Below are positions 6,632 to 47,100 of a stretch of DNA of 64,000 nucleotides, piece by piece. The notes beneath the pieces are model-generated. The model did not search any database and was not told the DNA's origin. It worked only from the letters and a program-made list of their open reading frames with translations. The stretch is from positions 62,001-126,000 of the forward strand of contig JANQLK010000031.1 of assembly GCA_028280615.1 (NCBI GenBank), in the 5' to 3' direction. Positions within the stretch are counted from its first letter, which is position 1. Every line of letters begins with the position of its first letter. The stretch comes from Woeseiaceae bacterium. Lineage in GTDB: Bacteria > Pseudomonadota > Gammaproteobacteria > Steroidobacterales > Woeseiaceae. The translations under genes and the position numbers were made by a program.

Positions 6632-6721
6632 GCCGGCCGGCAGACGCCGCCGCGAGCTCGTGGCGCATCCCGGGACGGCTTCACTGATATCATGCGGTCA
6701 ACAGTCGCGGCGCGAGATCTT

Positions 6722-6884
6722 TAGTGTCCTGTTTGATTAATTCCTTGACTGATTCGCCGCGTCTTTTAGCGTCTGGCGGCGTTGCGGCTCCTCGCAATAG
6801 CTCGCTATTACTCGTCGCCGCGCCTTGCCAGACGCGAAAATCCGCTGCCGACTGCAGTCAACGAATCAACCAAACAGGACACTA
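6722..6884. repeat. Imperfect palindrome with 14-bp perfect terminal inverted repeats (MITE-like)
   Basis: The ends TAGTGTCCTGTTTG (6722-6735) and CAAACAGGACACTA (6871-6884) are perfect inverted repeats. The interior also pairs imperfectly: GCGTCTGGCGGCG near 6769 with a GCCAGACGC stretch near 6830, and the centre GCAATAGCTCGCTATT. The whole 163 bases can fold into one long hairpin and encode no protein. Size and structure fit a miniature inverted-repeat element. Its right end lies 7 bases from the ATG of the following gene. Confidence 0.65.
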
Positions 6885-6891
6885 GGCAGTC

Positions 6892-8721: not shown

Positions 8722-8731
8722 GGTAGCGGGC

Positions 8732-26718: not shown

Positions 26719-28536
26719 CTACTCTGACGGTCGCACGGGGATCTCATCCGGAGGCTCCGGCGTGGCAGCTTCCCTGGGTTGGCCTTCGCCGAGGTCCTCC
26801 GCGTTCGGGTGGCGCGCGACCGCAAGCCGCGCGATGCGCCGCGCGAGCGTATTGATGCGCCTGAAGATACTGATGATCTCGGTCTCAATCTCGAACGTCT
26901 CCATTCGATTCGGCTCCTCGGCGACGAGCCGGGCGACGATCAGCGCGGTCGCCTCGTCGGCGAGGGCCACGACGGTCTTCTTGCTCTCGAAGACGTCGAT
27001 GGCGTCACCGGGATCGCCGCTCTCGAGTGCGACGAGGGCCTGCCGGTAGGAACGGCAGACCTCCTCGGCCAGCGCCTCGAGCGCCTCGGCCGTCGACGGG
27101 CTTACGACGAGTCGCTTGCGAAACCGCTTCCCGGCGACGGCAAGCAGATCCTTCTCGATGACGTCGCCGATGTTCTCCAGGTAGTTGGCGATACCGACGA
27201 AGTCGTTCAGATACTGCGGCTGCGGGGTGATCAGTCCTTTCTGGGAGAGCCGCCCGAGATAACCGATGATCGCTTCGTACAGCCGGTCGACCTTGTCGTC
27301 GGCTCTGGCAAGCGCTTCAACGTCCCGTTCGGATCCGCGCATGGCCGTATCCAGCGACCCCTCGACCATCGAACCGACGTATCCGCCCAGGCGAACGAGC
27401 TCGCGGCGGGTCTGGTCGAGCGCCATCGCCGGCTGCTCGAGGAACAGGTCGTCGAGGTACTTCGGCTGTATGCCCTCAGGCGGCGGCGGAGCCGGAACGA
27501 GCCGCGTGACCAGCTTCGCGAGCGGGCCCGTAAACCAGATGAACAGCACGAGGTTCGCGATGTTGAAAATCGTATGTGCGTTCGCGATTTGCCGCGGCGT
27601 GTCCGCGGCGGCGCGCACAAGCGCGCTGGCATCCGCCGTTACCGGCGACACCGCGCGGACGAGGTCGGCAAACTGCGGTATGAAAAACACCCAGGCCAGC
27701 ACGCCTGCAACGTTGAAGATCACGTGTGCCCAGGCGGCCTGCAGCGCCTCGCGGGGCCGCCCGAACGACGACAGCATCGCCGTGACGCAGGTGCCGATGT
27801 TGGCGCCGAAGATCAGCCCGATCCCGGTCTCGAGCGAAATGAGCCCCTGGCTCGCGAGCACGATCACGATGCCCGTGGTCGCCGACGAACTCTGCACGAC
27901 AGCCGTGAACAGCGCACCGACGCCGATCGACAGGAGCGGATTGCGCATGTTCCGCATCAGCTCGATGAACGGCGGCCAGTCGCGAACCGGGCCCGTCGCG
28001 ATGCTCATGAGTTCCATGCCGAAGAAGATGAGGCCGAGGCCCATCAGCGCCATGCCCCATTGCCGGACACGTTCGCGGCGCGCCAGGACCTCGGTAAAAA
28101 AGCCGGCGGCGATCATGAGCAGGCCATACTTGTAGACCTGGAACGCGATGATCTGCGCCGTGACGGTAGTGCCGACGTTGGCGCCCAGAATGACGCCGAC
28201 GGACTGGCTGAGCGTCAGGAGATTGGCCGAGATGAAGCCGACGATCAGGACCGTCGTGACCGACGATGACTGGACGACGGCCGTGATAGCGGCGCCGGCG
28301 ATGGCGGCCGTGAAGCGATTGGTGGTCAGGCGCGCGAGCAGCGCCTTCATGCCGCCGCCCGCGACGGTTTTCAGAGCCTCCGTCATGCGGCGCATGCCAT
28401 ACAGGAACAGCGCCAGCCCGCCGCCGAGCTGGGTAACGATGACACCGATGTCGAGTTCGCTGGTCACACTGGCATTTGACGACGTCTCGGCCGCCAGCGA
28501 CGGTCGGCCTTGTCTCCCGAAACACGCGCGTTGCAT
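26719..28536 (-). CDS. Na/Pi cotransporter family protein with PhoU-like C-terminal domain
   Basis: A 605-residue protein. Two inverted membrane repeats each carry the family QSSS motif: AVVQSSSVTTVLIVG and AVVQSSSATTGIVIV, with GANVGTTVTAQ and GANIGTCVTAM after them. This is the NptA/SLC34 type sodium-phosphate cotransporter fold. Residues about 360-560 form PhoU-like helices (ALDQTRRELVRLGGYVG, ENIGDVIEKDL). The ATG at 28536 gives a 23-residue leader that looks non-homologous; a GTG at 28467 (VTSELDIGVI) is an equally likely start. Neither has a clear ribosome binding site. With the PiT protein it is the second phosphate carrier in this window. Confidence 0.9.
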   Translation of the reverse strand: MQRACFGRQGRPSLAAETSSNASVTSELDIGVIVTQLGGGLALFLYGMRRMTEALKTVAGGGMKALLARLTTNRFTAAIAGAAITAVVQSSSVTTVLIVGFISANLLTLSQSVGVILGANVGTTVTAQIIAFQVYKYGLLMIAAGFFTEVLARRERVRQWGMALMGLGLIFFGMELMSIATGPVRDWPPFIELMRNMRNPLLSIGVGALFTAVVQSSSATTGIVIVLASQGLISLETGIGLIFGANIGTCVTAMLSSFGRPREALQAAWAHVIFNVAGVLAWVFFIPQFADLVRAVSPVTADASALVRAAADTPRQIANAHTIFNIANLVLFIWFTGPLAKLVTRLVPAPPPPEGIQPKYLDDLFLEQPAMALDQTRRELVRLGGYVGSMVEGSLDTAMRGSERDVEALARADDKVDRLYEAIIGYLGRLSQKGLITPQPQYLNDFVGIANYLENIGDVIEKDLLAVAGKRFRKRLVVSPSTAEALEALAEEVCRSYRQALVALESGDPGDAIDVFESKKTVVALADEATALIVARLVAEEPNRMETFEIETEIISIFRRINTLARRIARLAVARHPNAEDLGEGQPREAATPEPPDEIPVRPSE

Positions 28537-28852: not shown

Positions 28853-29452
28853 TCAGAACTGCGGCAGGAAGACGCTGTCGATCAGGTAGACGATGCCGTT
28901 CGTCGTGCGGACCGGCTGGCAGGAAACCAGGTTCGACTGGTTGATTTCCGTGCCCTCGCGGTCGCGGCTCACGAACAGCGACTGTCCCTGAACCGTGTCG
29001 ATCTCTGAGATACGCGTGTTGAACACGCGTCGCGGGTCGGTCTTGGAGCCCGAACCGGCGGCGACGTGGTAGGTCAGCACCGCCTGCAGGCCGACGAGGT
29101 TGCCCTCTTCATCGGTCACGCCGAGCAGGCCGTTCAGGACGCTTTCGGGGATCGCTGCGAAGGCCGTGTTGATCGGTGCATAGACCGTGAAGTCCGCGTG
29201 GGGGTCGTTCAGGACGTCGACGAGGCCGGCGGCGACGACGGCGTTGGCCAGTTCGCTCAGGTCCGGCGTCGCCAGCGCCGCGTCGACGATCGTGCCGTCG
29301 AAATGTGCGGCCGGTGTGAATGCGCATCTGAAGTAGTCGCGAATCTGCGAGCGGCGATCGCGCCAGTCTTCGAAGTCATCGTCGGCGAACGCGGGGGCCG
29401 CGAAGGCGGCCAGCGATGTGAATGCGAGAGCGGTGAATATCGTTTTTTTCAT
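28853..29452 (-). CDS. Secreted fasciclin-domain protein
   Basis: A 199-residue protein. I placed the start at the ATG at 29452 (MKKTIFTALAFTSLAAFAAPAFA), a clean signal peptide with AAGGAG 9 bases upstream, rather than 12 codons earlier. One fasciclin (FAS1) domain fills the rest: DGTIVDAALATPDLSELANAV, the H1 motif DFTVYAPINTAFAAIP, LTYHVAAGS and the final NGIVYLIDSVFLP. FAS1 domains mediate adhesion or bind ligands outside the cell. A variable loop between residues 25 and 50 is rich in Asp and Arg. It is a single gene. Confidence 0.92.
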   Translation of the reverse strand: MKKTIFTALAFTSLAAFAAPAFADDDFEDWRDRRSQIRDYFRCAFTPAAHFDGTIVDAALATPDLSELANAVVAAGLVDVLNDPHADFTVYAPINTAFAAIPESVLNGLLGVTDEEGNLVGLQAVLTYHVAAGSGSKTDPRRVFNTRISEIDTVQGQSLFVSRDREGTEINQSNLVSCQPVRTTNGIVYLIDSVFLPQF

Positions 29453-29584
29453 AGTCTCTAACTCCTTGAAGGCTGTTGGGAGGTCCATCCGGGTAGAGAC
29501 GAGATCATGAATCGGCCGTATTCTCGGGCGGTGACAACGCTGTAACGCGATGTAACAAAATGCTTCGCTGGTCCGGCCGTCCGC

Positions 29585-32122: not shown

Positions 32123-33346
32123 ATGTCAACGCACGCCATCTTCGTCGCGCCGTTCTTCATGGAAGCCACGCTCAGGTTTCTCGGCGGCGCCGCCGGGCTT
32201 GCCGGCGTCGACCTGACCCTGATCAGCCAGGAGCCGCTCGAGAAGCTGCCGCCCGGTATTCGCGAACGGCTGGCCGGCCACTGGCGGGTCGACAACGCAC
32301 TCGACCCGGTCCAGCTCGTCGACGCGGCGAAGGCATTGCAGCAGCGCTGCGGCGCGGCGACGCGCATCTTCGGGCCCCTCGAGCAGCTGCAGGTACCGCT
32401 TGCCGTCGCCCGCCAGGCGCTGGGCCTCGAGGGCCACGGGCCCGAGGTCGCCAACAACTTCCGCGACAAGTCGCGCATGAAAGACGTCCTGCGCGCGGCC
32501 AGTGTCCCCTGTGCGCGGCATGTGCTCGCAGGCGACCGCGAAACGGCGCTCCGCTTCGCGGGCGAGGTCGGATTTCCCGTGGTCGCGAAGCCGCCGGCCG
32601 GCGCGGGCGGTAAGAGCACCTGGCGCATCGACAGCGTCGAACAGCTCGCCGAGCTGCTCGAGCGCCACCCGCCCGATCCACGCCAGCCGACCCTGTACGA
32701 GGAGTTCGTCACGGGTACCGAACACTCCTTCGACAGCGTGATGTGCGACGGTGAGCTCGTCTGGCACTCGATCTCGCGCTACCTTCCGTCGCCGCTCGAG
32801 GTCCTCGAGAACCCCTGGATCCAGTGGGTCGTGATATTGCCCAGGGACATCGGCGGCAAGGAGTACGATCCGATCCGCCAGGCCGGCGAGGCCGGCCTGA
32901 AAGCGCTCGGCCTCGTCACAGGCCTGAGCCACATGGAGTGGTTCAGGCTCATGGACGGCCGCATCGCCATCTCCGAAGTCGGGGCCCGGCCGCCCGGCGC
33001 GCAGATCACGTCGCTGCTGTCGTACGCGCACGACATCGATTTCTACCGCGCGTGGCCCAAGCTGATGGTGTTCGGCGAGTTTCCCGCGCCGCCCAGGCAG
33101 TATGCCGCGGGCGCCGCCTATTTTCGCGGCCAGGGCCGTGGACGCGTGCGGCGTATTCACGGGCTCGACCGAGCCCAGCAGCGCTTCGGCGAGATCGTCA
33201 TGGAGGCGAAGCTGCCGCAGGAAGGGCAGCCGCCGTCGGACTCCTACGAGGGCGACGGCTACGTCATCGTACGACACCCCGACACGGCGGTCGTCGAGCA
33301 CGCGCTGACCGAAATCGTCAAGACGGTGCGCGTCGAACTCGCGTGA
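32123..33346 (+). CDS. ATP-grasp ligase (paralogue A)
   Basis: A 407-residue protein with a Rossmann-like pre-ATP-grasp domain (residues 1-110), then RDKSRMKDVLRAASVPC, the P-loop-like VAKPPAGAGGKSTWR and EEFVTGTEHSFDSV of the ATP-grasp lobes. The metal-binding region reads HMEWF and, 11 residues on, SEVGARPPG. In canonical ATP-grasp enzymes the second residue pair is Glu-x-Asn; here Asn is Gly. The family joins a carboxylate to an amine or thiol using ATP. It is the first gene of a plus-strand operon with an S51-like protein, two esterases and a second ligase, and is paralogous to the genes at 38034 and 40796. Confidence 0.9.
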   Translation: MSTHAIFVAPFFMEATLRFLGGAAGLAGVDLTLISQEPLEKLPPGIRERLAGHWRVDNALDPVQLVDAAKALQQRCGAATRIFGPLEQLQVPLAVARQALGLEGHGPEVANNFRDKSRMKDVLRAASVPCARHVLAGDRETALRFAGEVGFPVVAKPPAGAGGKSTWRIDSVEQLAELLERHPPDPRQPTLYEEFVTGTEHSFDSVMCDGELVWHSISRYLPSPLEVLENPWIQWVVILPRDIGGKEYDPIRQAGEAGLKALGLVTGLSHMEWFRLMDGRIAISEVGARPPGAQITSLLSYAHDIDFYRAWPKLMVFGEFPAPPRQYAAGAAYFRGQGRGRVRRIHGLDRAQQRFGEIVMEAKLPQEGQPPSDSYEGDGYVIVRHPDTAVVEHALTEIVKTVRVELA

Positions 33347-33410
33347 GCTAGGTTCTGGTCTACAATCCGGCCTCCGACCGAATAGCCCGCCGCCTCGGCC
33401 ATCGCCAGTC

Positions 33411-34355
33411 ATGACCACGGATACTCCAGTTCGCATCCTGCTCGGCCCGCAGCGGCCGCTCAAGAACGTCGGCGACGCCGTGGCGCGATCCGGCCTGCCC
33501 GACGGACCGCTGGCCGTGATCTCGGCGGCATGGCAGGAGGCCGAGGGCTATATCGACGACGTCAGGGAAATCGTCGACCGGCCGCTCGAGGACTTAGACC
33601 TGTACCGCCGCGCGGCCGACGTCGAGGCCCGGGATTCCGATCTTGCGACGGCGGCGCGCGAGCGCCAGGAGCGCCTGATCGAGCAGCAGCACATTTATCG
33701 CCTGCGCCTCAAGCAGCTCAGCATCGCGGCACGACAGATGCTGCGCGCCAAAGGCGATGCCGACATGATCGCGGCGGAGCAGCGCCATGCCATCGCTCAG
33801 CTGCGCGCGCTGGATCGGCACCACCTGCATCGGACGGAGAGAACCTGGAGCCGTTTCAGAGCGAGCTTTCATCCCGACAATCACGAGCTGCTCGCCCGGC
33901 AGTCGGCGGAGATCGAGGCGCAGCTGCGCCGCTCGGCCGGCGTGCTGATAACGGGCGGCAACGTCGCAATACTCCTGAATCGGCTGCGCCTGTTCGGCCT
34001 CGACCGGATGCTCGAGGAGATCCCGATCATTGCCTGGTCCGCGGGCGCCATGGTGCTCACCGAGCGCATCGTGCTGTTTCACGAGCGCTCCCCGGAAGGG
34101 CGGCGCGACGCCGAAGTATTCGGTGCCGGCTGCGGCATTCTGCCCGGCTACGTGTTCCTGCCCGATACGAGGCACCGCCTGCGCGTCCAGGAGCGCACGC
34201 GAGTCGGACTCATGTCGCGGCGCTTCTCGCCCGACGTCTGCGTAAGCCTCGACAGCGGCGCGGAACTGCACATTGACGCCGCCGGTCTTCGCTACGCCAA
34301 CGCCGTTGGCCGGCTCGGCCGCGACGGCCGCCTTCGCGAGCTGGTCGCCGCATGA
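33411..34355 (+). CDS. Peptidase S51 / cyanophycinase-like protein
   Basis: A 314-residue protein. The core follows the class I glutamine amidotransferase-like S51 fold: VLITGGNVAILLNRLRLFGL, then IIAWSAGAMVLTERIVLFHE, where the Ser of W-S-A-G-A-M is the expected nucleophile, and a late GCGILPGYVFLPDTRHRL. Residues about 55-165 are a long charged helical insertion that is not usual in the small dipeptidase E members. S51 enzymes cleave Asp-containing dipeptides or cyanophycin. It lies between ATP-grasp A and an esterase with which it overlaps (ATGA). Here it may hydrolyse the ligase product. The exact substrate is unknown. Confidence 0.8.
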   Translation: MTTDTPVRILLGPQRPLKNVGDAVARSGLPDGPLAVISAAWQEAEGYIDDVREIVDRPLEDLDLYRRAADVEARDSDLATAARERQERLIEQQHIYRLRLKQLSIAARQMLRAKGDADMIAAEQRHAIAQLRALDRHHLHRTERTWSRFRASFHPDNHELLARQSAEIEAQLRRSAGVLITGGNVAILLNRLRLFGLDRMLEEIPIIAWSAGAMVLTERIVLFHERSPEGRRDAEVFGAGCGILPGYVFLPDTRHRLRVQERTRVGLMSRRFSPDVCVSLDSGAELHIDAAGLRYANAVGRLGRDGRLRELVAA

Positions 34356-35488
34356 ATCCGGCGCTCGGCAGCCTGTTTCGCGACGGCGACCCGGCGCCTG
34401 ACGATCTCGACGCGTTTCTCGCCGAGGAGACCTTTCCGCTCGTGAACGGCAGCGACATCACGTTCGTCTACCGTGGCGGAGCCGACGCCGTCTACCTGCG
34501 CTGCTGGATCGCGGGCCTCGACACGGCGCAGCCGTTTCAGCTGCAGGGCGAGACCGATCTGTGGGCCGTCACGATCGATCTGCCGAAGGGTTCGAGAATC
34601 GAATACAAGTTCGAGGTCGCCCGCGGCGACGATCGCGAGCTGATCCTCGACCCGCACAATCCGCTCAGGGCACACGACCCCTTCGGTGCGAACTCGGTCT
34701 GCCAGGCCGCGGGCTACGAGCGGCCGGCCTGGACCGAGCACGACCCGGACGCGCGCGAGGGCCGCCTGGTCGGCGCCAGCATCGAGAGTTCGGCGTTCGG
34801 TGCCCGGCGTGACTTCCAGGTCTACGTGCCCGCCCGGTTTCGTGATAGCCGACGCTATCCGCTGTTGATCGTCCACGACGGCGCCGACTACGTGAATTTC
34901 GCCGCCCTGAAGACCGTGCTCGACAACCTGATCACGGCGCTCGAGATCCCGCCGCTCATCGTTGCCCTGATCCAGTCGCCCGACCGGCTCGTCGAGTACG
35001 GCGCCGACGACCGCCATGCGACGCACCTCGCCGACGAGCTCCTGCCGTTCATGGCGGAACACTACCCGCTGATCGACGACCCGCGATCGCGCGGCATCAT
35101 GGGTGCGAGCTTCGGCGGCGTCGCGTCGCTGCACGCCGCCTGGCGCAACCCGGGGCTGTTCGATCGGCTGCTTCTGCAGTCGGGCTCGTTCGCCTTCAGC
35201 GACATCGGCCGCCACAGCCGCGGCCCGGTCTTCGATCCGGTTGCCGAGTTCATGAACGCGTTCCGCGAGAATCCAGGCTGTCCGGCGAGCAGGATCTACA
35301 TGAGCTGCGGGATCTATGAGTCACTGATCTACGAAAACCGTTCGCTCGTCCCGCGCCTGCAGGCGCAGGGCATCGACGTGCGGTTCGAGGAAGCCCGCGA
35401 TGCGCACAACTGGGAGAACTGGCGCGACCGGCTTCGAAACGGCTTGTCGTGGCTGTTCCCGGGGCCGCTGTGGCTCATCTATGAATAG
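34352..35488 (+). CDS. Esterase with N-terminal CBM48-like domain (enterochelin-esterase-like)
   Basis: A 378-residue protein. Residues about 35-125 form an immunoglobulin-like domain of the type found at the front of enterochelin esterases and glycan enzymes (VTFVYRGGADAVYLRCW-like, KGSRIEYKFEVARG). Residues 145-378 are a putative esterase domain: LLIVHDGADYVNF, the nucleophile elbow GASFGGVASLHAAWRNP, and the catalytic His in EARDAHNWENWRDRL. It is intact. It overlaps the S51-like gene by ATGA and is followed 52 bases later by a second ATP-grasp gene. It could release or transfer acyl groups of the pathway product. No signal peptide is visible, so it should be cytoplasmic. Confidence 0.87.
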   Translation: MNPALGSLFRDGDPAPDDLDAFLAEETFPLVNGSDITFVYRGGADAVYLRCWIAGLDTAQPFQLQGETDLWAVTIDLPKGSRIEYKFEVARGDDRELILDPHNPLRAHDPFGANSVCQAAGYERPAWTEHDPDAREGRLVGASIESSAFGARRDFQVYVPARFRDSRRYPLLIVHDGADYVNFAALKTVLDNLITALEIPPLIVALIQSPDRLVEYGADDRHATHLADELLPFMAEHYPLIDDPRSRGIMGASFGGVASLHAAWRNPGLFDRLLLQSGSFAFSDIGRHSRGPVFDPVAEFMNAFRENPGCPASRIYMSCGIYESLIYENRSLVPRLQAQGIDVRFEEARDAHNWENWRDRLRNGLSWLFPGPLWLIYE

Positions 35489-35540
35489 TCAGCGCTTGCG
35501 CCTATAGTAAAAGGCGCAGAGACGTAGGGATAACAATAAT

Positions 35541-36776
35541 ATGGCGACGAGAACGCGACACATCGGCCTGTCGCTTGGGGCCGATATCTGCTGGCCCATC
35601 TGCTACGAGGCCCTGTTCAGGAAGCTGGACCTGAACCTCGACATCGGCGGCGAGACCGTCAACTTCGAGGTCGAGCGCGTTGCAATCGAACCGTTCGACC
35701 TTATGCAGCCCGTCAAGTATGACGTGGTCATCGACCGGTTGACGCACTGGTATCACACGTCGCGCGAGTGGATCAAAAAGGCGATCCTGACCGACGACCT
35801 GTACGTCTTCAACAATCCCTGGTCGCTGCAGGCGATGGAAAAACACACCTCGTACTGCGCGATGATGCGGCTCGGATTCCCGGTGCCGGACACGTGGCTC
35901 ATACCACCGAAGTCCTACGTCGAATCGCCGGACCTGCTTTCGACCCTTAGGAAATACGCCAGGCTCTTCGACCTCGGCGAAATCGGCGAGAAGATCGGCT
36001 ACCCGCTGTTCATGAAGCCCTACGACGGCGGCGCGTGGGTCGGCGTCACGGCGATCCGGGACGGCGAGGCATTGAAGAACGCCTACGACGAAAGCGGCAC
36101 GCGCCTGATGCATCTGCAGCACGGCGTGAAACCGTTCGATGCGTTCGTTCGCTGCGTGGGCTTAGGCCCGCAGTTCCGCTACGTCAACTACGATCCCGAC
36201 GCGCCGCTGCACGACCGCTACCGGATGGACAGGGACTTTTTGTCCGAGGCCGACAAGAAGACGCTCGCGCAGATGACGATCGTCATCAACGCGTTTTTCG
36301 GCTGGGACTTCAATTCCTGCGAGGCGCTGCGCTCAAACGGGGTCTGGCGGCCGATCGACTTCGCCAACGCCTGCCCGGACTCGCAGGTGACGTCGCTGCA
36401 CTATCATTTTCCGTGGCTGATTAAGTCGAACATTCGCTGGTCGGCGTTCTGCGCAGCGACCGACCGCTCCATGCACGCCAATCTCAACTGGGGAAACTAC
36501 TTCGAGATCGCGGGCAGGGACCTGCCGTTCGAGGACAAGCTAGAGCAGTATGCAAAGCTCGCGCACGACTATTTCCAGGTCGACGACTTCGAAGCGTTCT
36601 GCGAGAAGCACCTGCCGCATCTCGACGAAGTCGCTCACGAGTTCTTCGGTTCGGACACCGTGCGCGACGCGATTCGGCAGAAAGTCGAAGCGCTGTATCC
36701 CGAACATGAGTGGGACGAGTTCACCGAGCTTTTCTGGCAGCGCATCCAGACCTGGCGTTCCGAGAGCGCTGCGTAG
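35541..36776 (+). CDS. ATP-grasp-like ligase of a different type (B)
   Basis: A 411-residue protein. It does not share the sequence pattern of the three 405-residue paralogues. Recognisable elements are EKIGYPLFMKPYDGGAWVGV, the ATP-binding glycine-rich strand; FVRCVGLGPQFRYVNYDP; and a C-terminal NACPDSQVTSLHYHFPWLI. The FFGWDFNSCEALRSNG and WRPIDFANA stretch stands where the metal ligands are expected, with Asp and Asn. I take it as an ATP-grasp carboxylate-amine ligase relative. It is followed 4 bases later by an esterase gene. The two proteins likely act together. Family identity is less certain than for the other ligases. Confidence 0.75.
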   Translation: MATRTRHIGLSLGADICWPICYEALFRKLDLNLDIGGETVNFEVERVAIEPFDLMQPVKYDVVIDRLTHWYHTSREWIKKAILTDDLYVFNNPWSLQAMEKHTSYCAMMRLGFPVPDTWLIPPKSYVESPDLLSTLRKYARLFDLGEIGEKIGYPLFMKPYDGGAWVGVTAIRDGEALKNAYDESGTRLMHLQHGVKPFDAFVRCVGLGPQFRYVNYDPDAPLHDRYRMDRDFLSEADKKTLAQMTIVINAFFGWDFNSCEALRSNGVWRPIDFANACPDSQVTSLHYHFPWLIKSNIRWSAFCAATDRSMHANLNWGNYFEIAGRDLPFEDKLEQYAKLAHDYFQVDDFEAFCEKHLPHLDEVAHEFFGSDTVRDAIRQKVEALYPEHEWDEFTELFWQRIQTWRSESAA

Positions 36777-36780
36777 CGGC

Positions 36781-37509
36781 ATGAACAAGGAAATTACCCG
36801 CTGGTACACGCCGCGCCTCGAGCAGGAGGTCCAGCTCGTTCGCTGGGGCCACTACGGTACGCCCGTGATGCTGTTCCCGACCGCGGGCGGCGATGCCGAG
36901 GAGATAGAGCGCTTTCACCTGATCGGCGTGCTCGAGCCGCTGATCAGCGCCGGCCGGATCAAGGTGTACTCGACCGACAGCATCGCCGGGCGGACCTGGT
37001 TCGAGGGCGTACACTCGGCGGAATTCTGCTCGCGTGTCCAGAACCTGTTCGACGATTTCATCTACAGAGAGGTGACGCCCGCGATTCGCAGCGACTGCAA
37101 GTCCGACGATATCGAGATCATCGCGGCCGGGGCGTCGATCGGCGCGTTCAACAGCGTCGCAACGGTTTGCCGCCACCCGGACGCCTACAGGATGGCAATC
37201 GCGATGAGCGGCACGTTCGACCTCTCGAAGTACCTCGAAGGCACGATGAACCAGGATTTCTACTTCTCGTCGCCGCTGCACTACCTGCCGCAGCTCGAGG
37301 GCCCGCAGCTCGAAATGCTGCGCACGCGTTTCATCCTGCTGCCGAGCGGCGAGGGCGACTACGAGGACATCGGCGAGTCGTGGCGAATCGCCAACCTGCT
37401 CGGCGCCAAGGGCGTGCCGAACCGCGTCGACTCCTGGGGCCCCGAGTACCGCCACGACTGGGTGACGTGGCGGGCGATGCTGCCGAAGTACCTCGACGAG
37501 TTCGCTTAA
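36781..37509 (+). CDS. Putative esterase, alpha/beta hydrolase
   Basis: A 242-residue protein starting at ATG 36781, 4 bases after the preceding ligase stop. It contains TPVMLFPTAGGDAEEIERF, the nucleophile elbow G-A-S-I-G in AAGASIGAFNSVATV near residue 122 and a terminal YRHDWVTWRAMLPKYL with the catalytic His. There is no signal peptide. It is the last gene of the plus-strand operon and faces the GNAT gene; their stops overlap. A role on the product of the adjacent ligase is suggested by the tight linkage. Confidence 0.87.
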   Translation: MNKEITRWYTPRLEQEVQLVRWGHYGTPVMLFPTAGGDAEEIERFHLIGVLEPLISAGRIKVYSTDSIAGRTWFEGVHSAEFCSRVQNLFDDFIYREVTPAIRSDCKSDDIEIIAAGASIGAFNSVATVCRHPDAYRMAIAMSGTFDLSKYLEGTMNQDFYFSSPLHYLPQLEGPQLEMLRTRFILLPSGEGDYEDIGESWRIANLLGAKGVPNRVDSWGPEYRHDWVTWRAMLPKYLDEFA

Positions 37510-37988
37510 ACCTCGGCCTGCGGCCCGATATCGAGCCGCATGTCCACGCGATGCATGCCCGGGCCCCAGCCGTTTTCGGTCGTCCTGACGACGGTCGCGC
37601 CGAAGCGTTCGAAGAACGGCGCGGAGCGATGGCTTGCGGCGATCCTGAGGATCGTTGTATCCGACCCGCGGCAATCCTCGACGACGCGCTCGAGCATTCG
37701 TGAGCCGATGCCTTGGCCCTGCGTCCCCGGATCGATCAGGATCCAGTTGAGCTCGCGCGTCTGGGCGGCCGCTTGCGACAGGCCGAATGCGCCGACGACG
37801 CGGCCCTTTTCCTCGCAGACCCGATAGCCTGCCGCGCCGCCGTCGAGATACGCCAGGTAGTCCACGCGCTCATTGGGGCTGAAAAATTCAGGGGTGTTCG
37901 CGTCGAACATCGCGACGCATCGCCTCTGGTCCCGCGGCTCGTAAGGCCTGAAGGCGAGGTCCGTCATGCCGTTCATTGTCGCAGACAT
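37506..37988 (-). CDS. GNAT-family N-acetyltransferase
   Basis: A 160-residue protein with the GNAT acetyl-CoA site: GAFGLSQAAAQTRELNWILID followed by GTQGQGIGSRMLERVVED (motif A, Q/R-x-x-G-x-G/A) and SHRSAPFFERFGATVVRTT (motif B). Three in-frame ATGs lie within the first eight codons and the start is not decided; I give the longest. It acylates an amine in the cytoplasm. It lies 45 bases after ATP-grasp C on the same strand, so they probably share a transcript and it may modify a substrate or product of the ligases. Confidence 0.88.
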   Translation of the reverse strand: MSATMNGMTDLAFRPYEPRDQRRCVAMFDANTPEFFSPNERVDYLAYLDGGAAGYRVCEEKGRVVGAFGLSQAAAQTRELNWILIDPGTQGQGIGSRMLERVVEDCRGSDTTILRIAASHRSAPFFERFGATVVRTTENGWGPGMHRVDMRLDIGPQAEV

Positions 37989-38033
37989 CGGATGACCGGA
38001 AGGCGGCCCCGCGCAGCCCGGCGTGCGCCGCCG

Positions 38034-39251
38034 CTACTCCGCATACATCGTCAGATCGGTCCCCACCGCATCGGCCATCGCCAGCGTCTCGTCGAGGTCC
38101 GGGTGCCTGAGCATGATGAAGCCGTCCGAGACCAGCGTCTTCATCCAGTCGCGGCGCGGCGTGCCGGGTTTCAGGAGCGTGTTCCAGACGACGTGCTCGC
38201 CGAACCGCCGCTGCAGCGCCTCGGTGCCCTCGATGTGCGTGATCCGGCCGATGCCCTTGGCACGCTTGTAAATCGTGGCGACGTTGTACCGGCGTTCGGG
38301 ATTCGCGTCGAGCGTGCCCCGCGTCACGGCCGAGCCCCAGGCGCGGAACACGTCGAAGTCGCAGGCGTATTTCATCTGGTCGACCTGGTGGGCGCCTGGC
38401 GGGCGGCCGCCGATTTCGCCGAACACCACTTCGCCGTCGTCTTTCAGGTACCACTCCATGTGCGTGAACCCGGTCTGGAACTCGAGCGCATCGATGACCT
38501 CGAAGCCCATCTTCACGCCGCCCGCGAGTTTCGGGTCGTCGACGTCGCGGAGCGCGATGACCTGCGGACTGATCCATTCGTTGCTGCGGGCGATCAGCGG
38601 CCGCGGCCGGTAGGTGGCGATGTTGTAGTAGGCAATTCTGCCGTCGATCGTGATCGTGTCGAACGTGTACTCCTCGCCGTCGACGAACTCCTCGACGCTG
38701 ACCAGCGGCACGTGCCGAAGCCGGGGCAACACGGCACGCAGCTCGTCGGCATCGTTGACGCGATAGGTGTCCGCCGAGCCCGCGCCGGCAATTGGTTTCA
38801 AAATCAGCGGGAAACCGATGGACTCGGCGGCCTCCCAGCAGGCGGCGATCGAGTCGGCCGCGACGTGTCTGGGGGTGCGGATGCCCGCCGCGTCGAGCGC
38901 CGATTTCATTGCCTCCTTGTCGCGAAAGCGGTGCGCCTGCTCGATCGACAGGCCCTCGACGCCGAAGTGCCGGCGGAGCTCCGCAGCCAGCATAATGCCG
39001 GGCTCCCAGAGGCACTCGATGCGGTCGAGCGCGTGGCCGCGGAGCTTCTCGGTAAGCTCCCCGATGACCCGGGCCGAATCCCACAGCGACGAGACCTGGA
39101 CGTACTCCGACAGCGATCGCCTGACGAGTTCCGGCAGCCCGGCAGCCGGCGAATCGCCGACGCCGTAGACTCGCGCGCCGCACTCGGCCAGGCCGCGCGT
39201 GAACTCGGGCATGTCGGCCGGATAGCCCGGTGATAAGATGAGAACGTTCAC
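38034..39251 (-). CDS. ATP-grasp ligase (paralogue C)
   Basis: A 405-residue protein. I chose the GTG at 39251, which has GAGG spaced 7 bases upstream, over a TTG one codon before. It shares the order of paralogues A and D: Rossmann-like N-terminal domain (VNVLILSPGYPADMPEF), FRDKEAMKSALDAAGI, LILKPIAGAGSADTYRV, EEFVDGEEYTFDTI and HMEWYLKDDGEVVFGEIGGRPPG. Again the second metal-ligand position is Gly, not Asn. It lies divergently from the glycogen synthase gene with 78 bases between, and leads the GNAT gene. Function: ATP-dependent carboxylate ligation, substrate unknown. Confidence 0.9.
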   Translation of the reverse strand: MNVLILSPGYPADMPEFTRGLAECGARVYGVGDSPAAGLPELVRRSLSEYVQVSSLWDSARVIGELTEKLRGHALDRIECLWEPGIMLAAELRRHFGVEGLSIEQAHRFRDKEAMKSALDAAGIRTPRHVAADSIAACWEAAESIGFPLILKPIAGAGSADTYRVNDADELRAVLPRLRHVPLVSVEEFVDGEEYTFDTITIDGRIAYYNIATYRPRPLIARSNEWISPQVIALRDVDDPKLAGGVKMGFEVIDALEFQTGFTHMEWYLKDDGEVVFGEIGGRPPGAHQVDQMKYACDFDVFRAWGSAVTRGTLDANPERRYNVATIYKRAKGIGRITHIEGTEALQRRFGEHVVWNTLLKPGTPRRDWMKTLVSDGFIMLRHPDLDETLAMADAVGTDLTMYAE

Positions 39252-39329
39252 CAAGATGCCTCGTTACAAGACGGGAGCAACAATAACAACGTCAGGATAG
39301 CACTGGCGGAGTACCGAATCGGATAGTCC

Positions 39330-40799
39330 TTGGCACAGCAAAAACTCAAGATCTGCCTGTTGAGCTCTGAACTGGCGCCGCTCGCGAAGACGGGCGGTCT
39401 CGCCGATGTCTCGTCGGCGCTCGCGACCTACCTGCACGAAGACGGCCACGATGTGCGCGTGCTCATTCCACGTTATTCGCGCATCGACGAGACCGCTTTG
39501 AAGATCGAGCCCGTAGCCGAACTCACGGACCTCGAGGTAGCGCTCGGCCAGCGCCGCGTGCGTTACTCGATCGATCGAACGACGATTGCGGGCAGGAGGA
39601 CGCCCGTGCATCTGCTTCGCTGCCCCGAGTTTTACGCGCGCGACGGGATCTACACGAACGACGAAGACGAGTACCTGCGTTTCGTGCTGCTGTCGATCGC
39701 GGGCATCCAGATGTGCCAGCGCCTGAGTTTTGCGCCGCACATCATGAGCTGCCACGACTGGCAGACCGGCCTCGTTCCGCTGTATCTCAAGTCGACGTTT
39801 GCCTGGGACAAGCTGTTCGCGAATACGAAGTCGGTGCTCACGATTCACAACATCGGCTATCAGGGCTGGTTCCCGAGCTGGGTGCTGGACAATCTGGCGC
39901 TCAAGGGCGCGGAGCATCACCTGCACCAGGACGACCTCAAGCACGGTGTCGTCAATTTCCTGAAGACCGGCGTGCTGTATGCGGACGTGATCTCGACGGT
40001 CAGCCCGACTTACGCCCGTGAAATCCAGGGCGACGACTACGGCATGGGCCTGAACGACCTCCTGAGGCAGCGCGGCGGCAGCGTCATCGGCATCCTGAAC
40101 GGCGTCGACTACGACGAGTGGAACCCGGCCACGGACAGTCTCCTGCCTGCGAACTACTCGCCCGAGGACATGAGCGGCAAGGCGGTTTGCAAGTCGGTGC
40201 TCATGAAGGAGCTCGGCCTCGACGAGCGGCCGGGCCGGCCGCTGCTGGGCGTCGTCAGCCGACTGGTCGGCCAGAAGGGCATCGATCTCATTGCCGAGGT
40301 CGTGCCGCGCCTCCTCGGCCGGCGCGATTTCTCGTTCGCGATCCTGGGCAGCGGCGAGCAGCGGCTCGAACAGATGCTTCACGCCCTGGAGCGCGCGTTT
40401 CCGGGCCGCGTGTGTTTCTATCGCGGCTTCAATAACAAGCTCGCGCACATGATCGAGGCGGGCAGCGACATGTTCCTGATGCCGTCACGCTACGAGCCCT
40501 GCGGCCTCAACCAGATGTACAGCCTGAAGTACGGCACCGTGCCGATCGTCCGCGAAACCGGCGGCCTCGTCGACTCGGTCGACCCGATCGACGAAATCAG
40601 CGAATCCGGGACGGGCATCCTGTTTCGTGACTACAATGCCGCGGGACTCGAGTGGGCGATCAACCGCGGCCTCGACCTGTTCGACAACCAGGAACTCTGG
40701 AACAAGATCGTCGCCAACGGCATGGCCCGGGATTTCTCGTGGCGCCGCCAGGGCGGCCACTACGTCAACCTGTTCAAGAAGCTGAGCAACCTGAAATGA
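39330..40799 (+). CDS. glgA: Glycogen (starch) synthase, GT5 family
   Basis: A 489-residue protein starting at TTG 39330. It has the GlgA signature SSELAPLAKTGGLADVSSAL near the N-terminus, HDWQTGLVPLYL, TIHNIGYQGWFP, and the C-terminal donor-site stretch FLMPSRYEPCGLNQMYSLKYG followed by ETGGLVDSV. It transfers glucose from ADP-glucose (or UDP-glucose) to an alpha-1,4-glucan. All catalytic motifs are present. Unusually, it has no branching enzyme, phosphorylase or GlgC beside it and instead overlaps an ATP-grasp gene by ATGA. That suggests that its acceptor or role is tied to the ligase pathway. Confidence 0.93.
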   Translation: MAQQKLKICLLSSELAPLAKTGGLADVSSALATYLHEDGHDVRVLIPRYSRIDETALKIEPVAELTDLEVALGQRRVRYSIDRTTIAGRRTPVHLLRCPEFYARDGIYTNDEDEYLRFVLLSIAGIQMCQRLSFAPHIMSCHDWQTGLVPLYLKSTFAWDKLFANTKSVLTIHNIGYQGWFPSWVLDNLALKGAEHHLHQDDLKHGVVNFLKTGVLYADVISTVSPTYAREIQGDDYGMGLNDLLRQRGGSVIGILNGVDYDEWNPATDSLLPANYSPEDMSGKAVCKSVLMKELGLDERPGRPLLGVVSRLVGQKGIDLIAEVVPRLLGRRDFSFAILGSGEQRLEQMLHALERAFPGRVCFYRGFNNKLAHMIEAGSDMFLMPSRYEPCGLNQMYSLKYGTVPIVRETGGLVDSVDPIDEISESGTGILFRDYNAAGLEWAINRGLDLFDNQELWNKIVANGMARDFSWRRQGGHYVNLFKKLSNLK

Positions 40800-42019
40800 A
40801 CATCATTTTCGTCGAACCGGCTTTTCCGAATAACCAGCGCGAGTTCGTTCGCGCCCTGCATGCCGCCGGGGCCAATGTGTTCGGCATCGGCGAGCGGCCC
40901 GTCGAGTACCTGCCCGACGACCTCAAGAGCTGGATGACCGACTACGTGCAGATCCGTTCGGTCGTGCACGAGTCGTCGCTGCTCGCGGCCGTCAAGGCCA
41001 TCCAGAACGCGGGCGTGTGGGTGGACCGGCTCGAGGCGACGATCGAGGCGCACATCATGGCCGCCGCCAAAGTGCGCGAGGCCACGGGCATCCCGGGCAC
41101 CTCGACCGAGACGGCATTCCTGTGCCGCGACAAGCCGGCAATGAAGGAGGCGCTGCGCAAGGCGGGCATACCCTGCGCGCAGTCGACGCGCGCGAGAACG
41201 CCCCAGGATGCGCGCGACTTCGCCGCGGCGGTGGGTTACCCGCTGATCGTCAAGCCGCCCGACGGCGCGGGCGCCGCGGGCACGTTTCGCGCCGATGACG
41301 ACGCGGGGCTCGAGCGTGTCATTCAGGATTCGGGACTCGCTGACGGACACACGGTTGCCGTCGAGGAGTTCATCGAGGGTCACGAGGGTTTCATCGATAC
41401 GATCACGATCGCAGGCGACGTCGGTCACGAGTTCATTACCCACTACTACCCGAACGTGCTCGAGGCCATGCGGCATCGCTGGATTTCGCCGCAGATGGTG
41501 GCGACCAATCGCATCGACGAGCCGGGCTACCGGGAGGTGCGCGAGATGACCCGCAAGGTCATCAGGATTCTCGACATCGGCACGTCGGCGACGCATATGG
41601 AATGGTTCTTCGGACCCAAGGGCCTGAAGTTCTCGGAGATCGGCTGCCGTCCGCCCGGTGTCGGCCAGTGGGACGTCTACAATGCCGCCAACGACTTCGA
41701 CCTGTACTTCGAATGGGCCTGTGCACTCGCACACGGTAAAACGCACACGCCCCCGTCGCGGCGCTTCGCCGCCGGCATGATCGCGCTGCGGCCCGAAGGC
41801 GACGGCCGCATCTCGGGCTACTCCGGTGTCGACGAGATCGGCAATCGTTTCGGCGACTGCATCGTCGCCGCGCACCTGCCCGATCCCGGAACGCCGACCC
41901 AGCCCGTCGAGGCCGGCTACATGGCGAACGCCTGGATGCGCGTACGCCATCCGGACTATGACGCGCTGCGTGGAATCCTCGATACGATCGGCCAGACCGT
42001 GAAAGTGCATGTCGGCTAG
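40796..42019 (+). CDS. ATP-grasp ligase (paralogue D), coupled to glgA
   Basis: A 407-residue protein starting at ATG 40796, which overlaps the glgA stop (ATGA). Domain order is as in paralogues A and C: MNIIFVEPAFPNNQREFV at the N-terminus, CRDKPAMKEALRKAGIPC, LIVKPPDGAGAAGTFRA, EEFIEGHEGFIDTI and HMEWFFGPKGLKFSEIGCRPPG. The Asn ligand is again replaced by Gly. Three copies of this family within 10 kb, each beside a different partner, suggest division of labour on related substrates. Cytoplasmic, substrate unknown. Confidence 0.9.
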   Translation: MNIIFVEPAFPNNQREFVRALHAAGANVFGIGERPVEYLPDDLKSWMTDYVQIRSVVHESSLLAAVKAIQNAGVWVDRLEATIEAHIMAAAKVREATGIPGTSTETAFLCRDKPAMKEALRKAGIPCAQSTRARTPQDARDFAAAVGYPLIVKPPDGAGAAGTFRADDDAGLERVIQDSGLADGHTVAVEEFIEGHEGFIDTITIAGDVGHEFITHYYPNVLEAMRHRWISPQMVATNRIDEPGYREVREMTRKVIRILDIGTSATHMEWFFGPKGLKFSEIGCRPPGVGQWDVYNAANDFDLYFEWACALAHGKTHTPPSRRFAAGMIALRPEGDGRISGYSGVDEIGNRFGDCIVAAHLPDPGTPTQPVEAGYMANAWMRVRHPDYDALRGILDTIGQTVKVHVG

Positions 42020-42655: not shown

Positions 42656-44080
42656 ATGAAGCACAGAGCGATCTGGCAGTTCCCGAGCGTTTCAACCGTC
42701 CCGGTGCCGTGGGCAGTGCCGCTGCTCTTGCTGTCAATCCTCGCCCATGCTCAGGAAGTCGACTACCCGAAGGTCGCCGACGTCGAGATCGACGCACCCG
42801 ACTACGCGGTGCGCGGCCGCGACACGATGCTCGACGTATACCTGCGCGCCAAGTCCTTCGACGCGGAGTACATGCGTGCGCGCCAGCAGCACGCCGCCGA
42901 CAGCGAGAGCTACAAGCAGGCGCGCGGTCGCCTGCTGCCCGAACTGTCGGTCTACGCTGAGGAGCGGCGCACGGACCAGGACATCGTCGCCTCTGACATC
43001 GAAGTCATCGGCAGCGGCCGAACCAAGTTCGATACCACGGTCTACGGCGCGAACCTGAGCATGCCGCTGTTCGACCGGGAACGATTCATGGCGCTAAGCC
43101 AGTCGAAGCGCGAACTCGCGCTCGCTGACGCCCGCCTGCTGCAGGCCGAGCAGGCGCTGCTCCTGAAGGTCGCCGAGCGCTACCTGTCCGTGCTCGCGGC
43201 GGAGGACAACCTCGAATTCTCCGAGCGCGAAGAGGCGGCCGTCCGCGAGCAGGTCACGACCGCAGAGACGCGCTTCGAGGCCGACGTCGGCCGCGAGGTC
43301 GATTTCCTCGAGGCGAAGGCCAGGGCGTCCAGCGTCTATGCCGACAAAGTATCGGCAGAGAACATTCTCGACGACGCGATCGAAGGCATCCGCGAACTGA
43401 GCGGCGCGGGCGCCGAAAACTATGCACGTCTCTCCGAGGACATCGAGATTCTCCCGGCCGAACCGAACGTGCTCGATCCGTGGATCCAGTCGGCGATGGA
43501 GGGCAGCCTCGCCGTGCAGATCCAGCGCCAGGCGCTGTGGGTCGCGTCCTACGAGATCAAGCGCCAGCAAAGCAACCGTTACCCGACGTTCTCGCTGTAC
43601 GCGCGCGCCGACAAGAACGACCAGGGCGGCAGCCTGTTCGGCGGCGCGAGCGACGTCGAAACCCTCGAGTACGGCGTGCGCTTCAACATGAGCCTGTTCG
43701 AGGGCGGCGCGACGAGCTCCAGGATCCGTGAAGCGGCGTACCGCTATAACTCCGAACTCGAAACGCTGCAGGAAAACATGCGCCAGACGACGCGCGAGAC
43801 CCGGTCGGCGTTCAACGATCTCAGAACGTCGATCACGCGCATCGACTCGCTGGAAACGTCGGTAGCGGCGCAGGAGGCCGTCGTCGAATCGAAGCGCAAG
43901 GGATACCCGGCGTTGTTCACGATCCGCGACGTGCTCGATTCGGAGCGCGATCTCTACTCGATCAAGCGCGACCTCGCCAAGGCGCGCTACGACTATCTGC
44001 TCGCCGACTTCAGGCTCAAGGCGGCAGTCGGATCCCTGAGCGAACAGGACCTCGAGCGCATCAACGCGCTGTTCGAGTAG
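42656..44080 (+). CDS. TolC-family outer membrane protein for type I secretion
   Basis: A 474-residue protein with a signal peptide (residues 1-32, ending LSILAHAQ) after a GAGGA ribosome binding site. Two outer membrane efflux protein repeats are seen: ARQQHAADSESYKQARGRLLPELSVYAEER with long helices to residue 240, and the second half ending YPALFTIRDVLDSERDLYSIKRDLAKARYDYLLADFRLK. TolC-like trimers form the exit duct across the outer membrane. It is 42 bases upstream of the giant LEPR-XLL protein gene, which identifies its likely cargo. Confidence 0.9.
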   Translation: MKHRAIWQFPSVSTVPVPWAVPLLLLSILAHAQEVDYPKVADVEIDAPDYAVRGRDTMLDVYLRAKSFDAEYMRARQQHAADSESYKQARGRLLPELSVYAEERRTDQDIVASDIEVIGSGRTKFDTTVYGANLSMPLFDRERFMALSQSKRELALADARLLQAEQALLLKVAERYLSVLAAEDNLEFSEREEAAVREQVTTAETRFEADVGREVDFLEAKARASSVYADKVSAENILDDAIEGIRELSGAGAENYARLSEDIEILPAEPNVLDPWIQSAMEGSLAVQIQRQALWVASYEIKRQQSNRYPTFSLYARADKNDQGGSLFGGASDVETLEYGVRFNMSLFEGGATSSRIREAAYRYNSELETLQENMRQTTRETRSAFNDLRTSITRIDSLETSVAAQEAVVESKRKGYPALFTIRDVLDSERDLYSIKRDLAKARYDYLLADFRLKAAVGSLSEQDLERINALFE

Positions 44081-44122: not shown

Positions 44123-47100
44123 ATGAGCTGCGACAAGAAAACAATGCAACGCAATCTCCGCCGGGCTCGCCGCAAGGAGGTCAGGTACGAGCCGCTCGAG
44201 CCGCGCGTCCTCTTGTCGGCGGATATCGTGCCGCTCGAGGTCGACGCGAAAGAGGCAATGCTTGCGGCCGACGAACTGATCGTCGACGTCGACCTGGACC
44301 AGGTCGAAGAGGCATCCCGCTTCGTCATCGAGGGACTCGAGCCCGTGGAAGTGCCCGAGGCGATCGTCACCGAGGTCGACGATCCGGAGGCGGTCCCGAG
44401 CGACGCGCCAAGCCCGGACGAAAACGAGCCCTCCGCCGACATCGAGGCGCCCCCCGTCGAATCGCCCGTTCCCCTGCCGGCAGGCGATGCCCAGCAGCTG
44501 CTTGCCGCCTACTGGCAGGGTCTCAAGCCTTCGGTCGCGGCCGAGGCGCAGCCGGAGGTACGGCGCGAAGTCATCGTCGTCGACAGCGCCGTCGAGGACC
44601 GCGACACGCTGATAAGAGGGCTCATCGACGATTACGTCGCGACCCAGCCTGCAACGTCGGGTGAGCAGACCGTCGAGGTCGTCGACGAGCCGGCCGGCGA
44701 CTCGCGTTTCGCCCTCGACCGGACCGTCCGCATAGCGACGGCCGACGACCGGACCGCGGCCGAGGTTCGCATCGTCGTGCTCGACGGAGCGAGCGATGGC
44801 CTCGACCAGCTCAGCGATCTCCTGTCGAGCCATGAGAACCTCGCGGCGCTGCACCTGATCGCCCATGGCTCGAGCGGCGCGCTACGTCTCGGCAGCAACA
44901 CGGTCAACAGCGAAACCCTGGCGCGCCGTGCCAACCAGGTCAAGGGCTGGGGCGGCGCGTTCAAGGCCGACGGCGACATTCTTCTGTACGGCTGCAATGT
45001 CAGCGATGACGGCTACGGCGTTGAGTTCACGCGCGCACTCGGTGAATTGACCGAGGCGGACATCGCCTCGTCCGACGACGTGACCGGCGCCGGCGGCGAC
45101 TGGCAGCTCGAGAGCCGGACCGGCGACGTGACCGCGGCGGCGCTCGCGGCGCCCGGCTGGGCGGGCAGCCTCGCGCTCGTCGACTCGATACCGGGCATCG
45201 CCGACGTGTCGGAGCTCGCCGACGAGATCCTCGACGTGCTGGACCGCCTCGCGGCGCTGGCCGACGCTCTCGGGAGCCTTACGATTCCCGCCGAGCTCGG
45301 CGCCGACGTCACGGACTTCGCCTTCCTCGACGATCTCGCTGCCGTGCTCTCGTTCGCGGGCGATGCCGCGCCGACCGGCACGACGATTGCGGAGATCGTG
45401 ACGGATCTCCAGGGTAAGCTCGATACGGCGCTCGCGGGCACGAGCTTCGACGGCGCGCTCTCGATCAGCGCGGGCTTCGATGACGTCGCCGAGGAGCTGC
45501 GCTTCAAGCTCACGGGCGATATCCTCGCGAGCGTCGATTCCACGATCGCATCCGCGAGCGCGAGCTTCGAGCAGGCAATCGCGGCGATCGCCGGCGATCC
45601 GGATCTCGCGGCCCTGCTGTCGGGCGACGTTGCGGGCGTCGACCTGCCGGACATCACGGGCGACATCAGTCTCTCGACGCTGCTGCGCCTCGATGTCGAC
45701 TTCGGCCTGAGCTTGAGTGCCTACCTCGCAAGCGATACGCCGTTGACCGACGCCGAGCTGTTCGTCGGCGTCAACGAACTCGAAGCCGAGCTTCGGATGA
45801 CCGTGTCCGATCTCGACGCGGCCGACCTCGTGCCGGGCGATGTGTCGCTGGGCGTCGAGGATGCGAGCCTGACGCTCGGCGCGACCGTGGCGGCATCGTT
45901 CGCGGCCGGAGACGGCCAGGGACGCCTCGATGCGGCCGCGATCCAGGCGACTGCCGCCGCGGACCTGTTCGACTTCTCGGACAATGCGGCCTTCCGGGCG
46001 ACCCTGCCCGTCGTCGCCGGTATCGACGGGCTCGGCGAGCTCGCGAGCCTCGGTCAGCCGATCGTCTACGTTGACGACGCGACGATGGGCGACGATGCGA
46101 TCGACGTCAGGCTGGACTTCATCCTGGGCGATGAACTCAGGTCCGCGCTCACGGGCCTGTTCACCGGCTTCGAACTGGATCTCGATTCGCTCGACCTCGT
46201 CAACCTGCTTCCCGAGCTGCCGTTCGAGCTGCCCGGTGTCGATTTCGGAAGCTTAGGGCTCCAGCCGCTGCTCGACGCGCTGAATGGGCTATTCGACTTC
46301 TCGGCGCTCGGCGACGCGCTGACGGATTTCTATGAGCTGTTCGACGCGCTCACGCTGTTTAAGGGCCTGGGCCTGCCCGGCTTCGACTGGGACGCGCCGG
46401 ACTTCGACTGGCAGGGCATCTTCGGCGTGCCCGACTTCGACGGCTTCAAGCTGCGCTACGACGCGGTGCTCGAGCGCCTGCTGCCGGGCTTCGACCTGCC
46501 GAGTCTCGGCTTCGAGCAGTTCAAGCTGGATATCGCGGCGCTCGACCTTTCCGACCTGCGCGCGGCGTTCGCATCGCTACTCGATGACCTCGAGGCGGCT
46601 TTCGACTTCGAGCTGTCGGCCGACTTCGAACTCGACGAGCTCTTGACGGCCATCGACCTCAATCTGGGTGAACTGCCGACGCTGAACGGCCTGTCCGCGT
46701 TCCTCGAGGGCATGCTGCCGGTAATCACGGGCTTCGACGCGGACCTGGGTCCCCTGCGCTTCGACATCCGTTTCGATGCCGACAGCCGCGAAGTCGCCGT
46801 CGACTTCGACCTCGACGTACATCGCGTCGATCGGGACATCTTCGGCAACGACAATATCGATGCGCTGACCGACGAGATCAACGCGCTGCTCGCGAATCTC
46901 GCCGACGCCGATTTTCTCGAATCCCTGGGCATCGATGCGTCCGAGCTCGGGGATTTCAATTTCGACTTGCCCGCGCCGCCGGCCGAAGTTCCCGCCTTCG
47001 ACCTCCGTACGGATATCGGCCTCGCATTCACCGTGGGCGCGAGCCTCGCAAGCCTTATCGACGGCAACGGCTTCGACAGTGATCGCGACGGATTCTTCGA

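Follow-up and report, generated by a model that had tools for sequence, protein, structure and literature searches.

A stretch of 64,000 nucleotides from a Woeseiaceae bacterium (assembly GCA_028280615.1, contig JANQLK010000031.1, positions 62,001 to 126,000; hereafter the window) was found to carry a conserved gene set for amide, and probably ester, synthesis and cleavage, in which ATP-grasp ligases are linked to two esterases, an S51-like protein and a glycogen synthase (GlgA). The set lies within nine genes (A to I; Table 1) which a first-pass annotation of this DNA had placed at 32123-42019; all nine were present there with the families it had named, as coding signal was seen in every open reading frame and third-position GC and family matches agree. 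Our preferred reading, to which we give even weight for and against, is that the set would direct the carrier-free synthesis and turnover of an amide-, probably ester-containing small compound, by two modules and with coupling to alpha-glucan metabolism. The core is C-D-E, often with I, together with a GCS2 ligase or B, and the extension is A-G-H with more ligases. Coupling to alpha-glucan synthesis in the long form is a matter of gene linkage alone.

A species-genome collection was scanned with D, the hallmark gene of the set; 509 of 511 pattern stretches encode a relative of D, and the best 80 of the 509 were taken as the loci analysed. They derive from sediment and other bacteria, in records whose titles name at least five phyla (most records are metagenome-assembled, the phylum labels come from those titles, and binning may err), and D identity across them is 62-81%. 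C was found in 78 of the 80 loci, E in 70, I in 57, B in 51, G and H in 33 each and A in 30, all of these counts being lower bounds as many contigs end near the set. When only the 41 loci flanked by 6 kb or more on each side (flank-complete loci) were counted, C was present in 41, E in 38, I in 33, B in 29, G in 22, A in 21, H in 20 and another GlgA in one. The first-pass annotation had also remarked on overlaps and very short gaps, and these recur elsewhere for B-C (median spacing -4, n=48), D-E (-4, n=66), H-I (-4, n=27) and A-B (2.5 bases, n=22), but not for C-D (50.5 bases, n=72) or E-I (1503 bases, n=32). It had named scattered homologues with no conserved linkage as the outcome that would speak against a pathway; when this was checked, linkage held in the 80 loci and over several phyla, and with linkage and partners conserved in this way the set is a functional one.

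Among 60 related genomes (own genome included), D was present in 14, and C (E-value at most 1e-40) was found in exactly the same 14 and in no others. Twelve of the 14 also have I (at least 60% identity), which in G022 is split between two contigs, and G039 and G051 lack it; in the 46 relatives without D the only trace of it was a 44-residue piece, in G001. Genome G042 has C and D in two copies (C57 and C110), each with GlgC nearby on the same contig. In a phylum-wide draw of 299 genomes spread evenly, D was found only in the own genome, and there was no match to D in 72,556 plasmid records.

The core form is represented by Rhodobacteraceae-type and Granulosicoccus loci, which have C-D-E, usually with I and often with an adjacent GCS2 ligase, and named strains such as Oceanibium sediminis and Aliiruegeria lutimaris have it. 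In the D tree (FastTree, midpoint-rooted, read for topology only) the gammaproteobacterium Granulosicoccus falls among alphaproteobacterial rows, which we read as horizontal transfer of the unit. A was used to search 22 genomes, of which 13 are core-only (G358-G370); four of the 13 gave no match at 1e-20, and the matches in the other nine all lie at the I position. In Acidobacteria Mor1 (L129), I-H/A-G lies approximately 490 kb away from B-C-D, so the two halves can separate yet stay whole. Further ligases recur beside the set, namely BesA/PGM1-like proteins (11 of the 80 loci), PurD-like ATP-grasp proteins (5), GCS2 (14) and GCS2 with CBS domains (3). The GCS2-like protein with CBS domains is near E in L082 (12018-13976), L066 and L050, and is perhaps a ligase regulated by adenine nucleotide.

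A, D, G and I belong to the ATP-grasp ligase superfamily by fold or family match together with conserved ATP and Mg residues; as had been proposed, three of them (A, G and I, by family search) are related ligases and the fourth, D, is of another type, recognised by its predicted fold. A, G and I each have a clade of their own (FastTree support 1.0, 0.999 and 1.0), and I is the one of these three L-amino acid ligase (LAL)-type proteins that is also kept in the core-only form. By homology all three are putative dipeptide-forming L-amino acid ligases: the I profile is closest to the L-amino acid ligase 4wd3 (E-value 1.2e-23, aligned positions 45-290), while in A the L-amino acid ligase C-terminal domain 2 is just under the cut-off. 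Residues K116, K156, E272 and E285 of A occur in at least 98% of 31 rows, and K113, K153, E269 and E281 of I are conserved in 31 rows. The known enzymes (4wd3, BacD, BL00235) share with A, G and I the ATP-grasp domain with its invariant or near-invariant Lys and Glu positions. The differences are that the window cluster carries three separate types together and lie also in the third Mg ligand of ATP-grasp ligases, which is usually Asn (ExN-R motif); A, G and I mostly have ExG-R-PPG, the window proteins having Gly or Ala at this position in A and G and Gly in I.

The D sequence gave a weak match to the Ddl C-terminal domain (E-value 0.0019, under the cut-off). An AlphaFold2 model of D, built from 38 sequences (mean pLDDT 86.9), matched the structures of ArgX, RimK and Ddl, the best being ArgX (E-value 1.8e-10, query template modelling (TM) score 0.45), and on this model D is predicted to have an ATP-grasp fold. 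Residues K101, K159, E261, D273 and N276 are invariant in 38 rows. D therefore resembles the ArgX/LysX/RimK/Ddl ligases in its modelled fold and in invariant Lys, Glu, Asp and Asn positions, yet is almost without sequence similarity to them (best profile E-value 2.2e-4), has a long helical C-terminal part in the predicted model and has no LysW-type carrier nearby; frames of the LysW type numbered zero in 81 sequences (the 80 loci and the window), other small carriers not having been sought.

Both C and E match PF00756 (E-values 1.1e-22 and 2.6e-8, respectively). In C, S253 and H352 are invariant in 34 rows, while in E, for which the profile had no PDB relative at 1e-5, S119 and H225 (numbered from 36781) are conserved in 27 rows; on family knowledge, the conserved positions of C, D, E and I are presumably catalytic residues. 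The fold of C over both domains is near that of the enterochelin esterase Fes (query TM score 0.68-0.76), with which it shares the esterase domain, with S253 and H352, and probably an N-terminal E-set/Enterochelin_N-like domain. Enterochelin_N matched all 24 C members tested (of 78) at an E-value of at most 1 (best 7.4e-9), although the C of the window scored 18.6 bits against a cut-off of 27.1. C differs from Fes in having no siderophore genes among the recurring neighbours that were identified, and by E-value CBM48 feruloyl esterases come first (8bf3, 1.7e-24), yet with a query TM score of 0.58. Fes cuts esters of N-acylated serine, so an N-acyl amino acid ester would be the expected substrate of C.

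B belongs to Peptidase_S51 (PF03575, E-value 4.9e-8) and Ser210 is kept in 49 of 49 rows, which agrees with its first description as an S51/cyanophycinase-like protein. That description is weakened at position 252, which we take, by eye and by analogy with cyanophycinase, to be the S51 catalytic His: it is His in 19 of the 49 rows and Asp in another 19, including the window. H224, present in 47 of the 49, may replace it. The B profile had no PDB relative at 0.01; as a single sequence B matched Lmo0363, an S51-like protein, at 0.0082. No CphA-type protein was seen among the nine genes or the recurring neighbours identified, the genomes as such not having been searched for CphA, and no signal peptide was seen by eye in B, C or E, no prediction program having been run.

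H is an ADP-glucose-type GlgA (TIGR02095, 529.9 bits against a cut-off of 328.45) with the motifs AKxGGL and EPxGL conserved in 35 rows. The glucan link at which the first-pass annotation had guessed is strengthened by GlgC (12 of the 80 loci), GlgB (11) and GlgP (7), which lie in the same loci of relatives. Among the 41 flank-complete loci, in counts uncorrected for descent, all 22 with A or G had a glycogen gene (H counted), as did 2 of the 19 without; GlgA was found in 20 of 22 vs 1 of 19, and GlgB, GlgC or GlgP in 10 of 22 vs 1 of 19. Loci L013 and L023 have a glycogen gene without A or G. In L141, from the same genus, A-B-C-D is followed, past an opposite-strand G, by H-I-BesA-PurDlike-GlgC-GlgB in one direction, and in L020 and L029 it is GlgB that separates I from BesA. 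Other GlgA proteins occur in place of H in L131, where a GlgA 28% identical to H adjoins G-A-A, and in L089, where one 34% identical is beside GlgB-G-A-I. The set thus shares GlgA, and in relatives also GlgC, GlgB and GlgP, with the bacterial glycogen operon, but differs from it in the interleaved ligases and esterases.

The own genome also has a separate standard operon, GlgC-GlgA-GlgB-GlgP (L137, contig C29), which makes H its second GlgA. The GlgA of that operon scores 254.8 bits, under the TIGR02095 cut-off, and GlgA of such a score recurs in genomes of the same genus. Six of the 14 relatives with D have a second, low-scoring GlgA (fragments in G054), while the other eight have only one GlgA over the cut-off, or two in G042, though incomplete genomes may hide more. 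GlgC was found in 14 of 14 relatives with D vs 31 of the 46 others. In G001 (L133, about 6200-9040) an H-type GlgA has fragments of A, G and I on its flanks and the genome has no D, a pattern which looks like decay of the set. A GlgA tree was built with 9 of 72 rows omitted (L101 and L122-L128, each a second copy of the same gene, and L032, which is incomplete); the cassette GlgA is not cleanly apart from other GlgA, G001 and G023 being nested inside and G045, G058, G051 and G039 lying at the base. The relatives G030 and G015, of the same genus as the own genome, have H proteins identical to those in the Woeseiaceae records L013 and L022.

Several observations weigh against the preferred reading. 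The association with glycogen genes is in good part shared descent, so Fisher values overstate it. GlgB accompanies A and G in L050 and L074, yet neither the locus nor a further 18 kb on that side contains GlgA, and in G001 and G023 an H-type GlgA persists in a genome that has no D. The modules are also not always complete: E is missing in 3 of the 41 flank-complete loci (L022, L052, L083), G030 has H and I without A and G, and G051 has B-C-D-E without an I orthologue, its GlgA lying in a separate glycogen operon. Neither A nor G was found in the 13 core-only genomes searched. Glucan binding by the N-domain of C was considered and found weakly supported, as CBM_20 and CBM_48 are under the cut-off in the C of the window and Enterochelin_N fits a larger number of members. 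Finally, most core-only loci are without a linked glycogen gene, which argues that glucan is unneeded for the basic reaction.

This last point, together with the separate glycogen operon of the own genome, favours a free peptide-like solute (a nitrogen store or compatible solute), the glycogen genes being there through joint regulation of carbon and nitrogen stores with no chemical link to a glucan. Such a solute remains a strong rival to glucan coupling, and we regard it as less probable than the preferred reading though well within reason. The spacing of H-I, at most 30 bases in 22 of 27 loci, is tighter than co-regulation needs, and GlgA as distant as 28-34% identity recurs with A and G.

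Rather than a small compound, the ligases could tag a protein, such as a glycogen enzyme, in the manner of RimK or tubulin ligases, with removal of the tag by B and the esterases; the predicted fold of D, like that of RimK and ArgX, would suit this, but the closest solved relatives of I are dipeptide-forming L-amino acid ligases and several distinct ligases with esterases would better suit a small compound, so we consider tagging unlikely. The nearness of C to Fes and the resemblance of its N-domain to Enterochelin_N could point to a siderophore-like compound whose ester backbone is opened by C as enterobactin is by Fes. This appears very unlikely, since no nonribosomal peptide synthetase, catechol, hydroxamate or siderophore receptor gene was seen among the recurring neighbours identified, an AMP-binding protein recurring in three loci. 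Least credible is that the genes are chance neighbours or hitch-hikers within one genus: F is such a passenger, but for the set this is already contradicted by linkage in several phyla, by the 4-base overlaps and by the identical distribution of C and D over 60 genomes.

If synthesis and turnover coupled to alpha-glucan metabolism is correct, the core module, made up of C-D-E and in most cases I and completed by B or a GCS2 ligase, would work as follows. From what is known of their families, D and I would activate carboxylates as acyl phosphates and couple them to amines, and C and E would hydrolyse esters, either in the product or in an intermediate, the role of C resembling that of enterobactin esterase with an N-acyl amino acid ester as substrate; all of these enzymes would act inside the cell. 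The extended module (A, G and GlgA, to which relatives often add GlgB, GlgC, GlgP and two more ligases) would tie further condensations to the alpha-glucan made by GlgA from ADP-glucose, and the compound may be assembled on a glycogen-like glucan, be bound to it, or be stored and mobilised along with it. Attachment to the glucan is put forward as a hypothesis. A particular version, a modified glycogen in which amino acids or peptides made by the ATP-grasp ligases are esterified to the glucan of a dedicated GlgA and freed by the two intracellular esterases, giving one carbon-nitrogen granule, is speculative and rather improbable.

Table 1. The nine genes of the window cluster (positions are those of the window)
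Gene	Position	Strand	Assignment	Basis
A	32123..33346	+	LAL-type ATP-grasp ligase, 407 aa	Family match, own clade
B	33411..34355	+	S51-like protein, 314 aa	Family match; Ser210 kept, presumed His position variable
C	34352..35488	+	Two-domain esterase, enterochelin-esterase type, 378 aa	E-set/Enterochelin_N-like domain and PF00756
D	35541..36776	+	Divergent ATP-grasp protein, 411 aa, hallmark gene of the set	Predicted fold, conserved residues
E	36781..37509	+	Second serine esterase, 242 aa counted from conserved start	PF00756
F	37506..37988	-	GNAT acetyltransferase, passenger	Family match; outside the conserved set
G	38034..39254	-	LAL-type ATP-grasp ligase, 406 aa	Family match, own clade
H	39330..40799	+	GlgA, ADP-glucose-type glycogen synthase, 489 aa	TIGR02095
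I	40796..42019	+	LAL-type ATP-grasp ligase, 407 aa from ATG 40796	Family match, own clade

The starts of E (4 bases past the D stop) and I are corrected and most likely as listed. Intergenic gaps within the cluster are 4-75 bases. The nine genes had been taken as a single unit; by strand there are three (A-B-C-D-E, F-G and H-I), F is not conserved, and the set divides into core and extension modules. The GNAT protein F, which had been counted as a member, is absent from the set elsewhere: homologues (E-value at most 1e-10) were found in 3 of the 60 relatives, own genome counted, one of them on a different contig from the cluster and another in a genome that lacks D, and F had no best match in the other loci. 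The 636 bases 3' of I hold short frames only, apart from frames entering from the sides, and were not compared with graspetide precursor families.

Recurring neighbours were grouped into 29 clusters present in at least two loci, of which clusters 6-28 were searched against families and cluster 29 (two loci) was left out. Besides ligases and glycogen genes they include NtrC, a histidine kinase, a lysyl-type tRNA synthetase, SDR, GST, SGL, LysR, DHOD, YaeQ, a DNA polymerase delta-like protein and a protein with an N-methylation motif; clusters 18, 20 and 27 had no Pfam match. A MalK-type ABC ATPase (cluster 19) occurs in four core-form or related loci, several kb off or near D, at a distance which suits a chance neighbour in three of the four. 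The TolC-like outer membrane protein gene (42656-44080), the MATE gene and the upstream membrane protein were considered as partners and rejected, as they were never the best match in 90 loci, ten of which span only approximately 4 kb. The TolC-like gene lies ahead of an open frame of 5944 amino acids (44123-61957, + strand) that has DUF4347 close to the start and RTX repeats in the second half, and which looks like a secreted giant surface protein. Beyond the MATE gene, 28853-29488 and 26719-28536 (both - strand) encode a Fasciclin-domain protein and a Na/Pi cotransporter with a PhoU domain.

No description of the cluster was found in the open-licence literature searched, an earlier mention in Iyer et al. 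2009 not being excluded. That survey of ATP-grasp amidoligase neighbourhoods reportedly contains several ligases with peptidases and hydrolases, GCS2-type ligases included; it is not known to contain a GlgA-linked set. In the established view, bacterial glycogen is a plain polymer of glucose. That amide-forming ligases and esterases keep together across phyla and, in the long form, lie with glycogen genes points to a pathway, so far undescribed, between peptide-like chemistry and a storage sugar. With GlgA, GlgB and GlgC tied to numerous amide ligases and a pair of esterases, the gene content suggests that the storage glucan is modified or that carbon and nitrogen are stored together. As named strains carry the core form, part of the pathway is directly testable.

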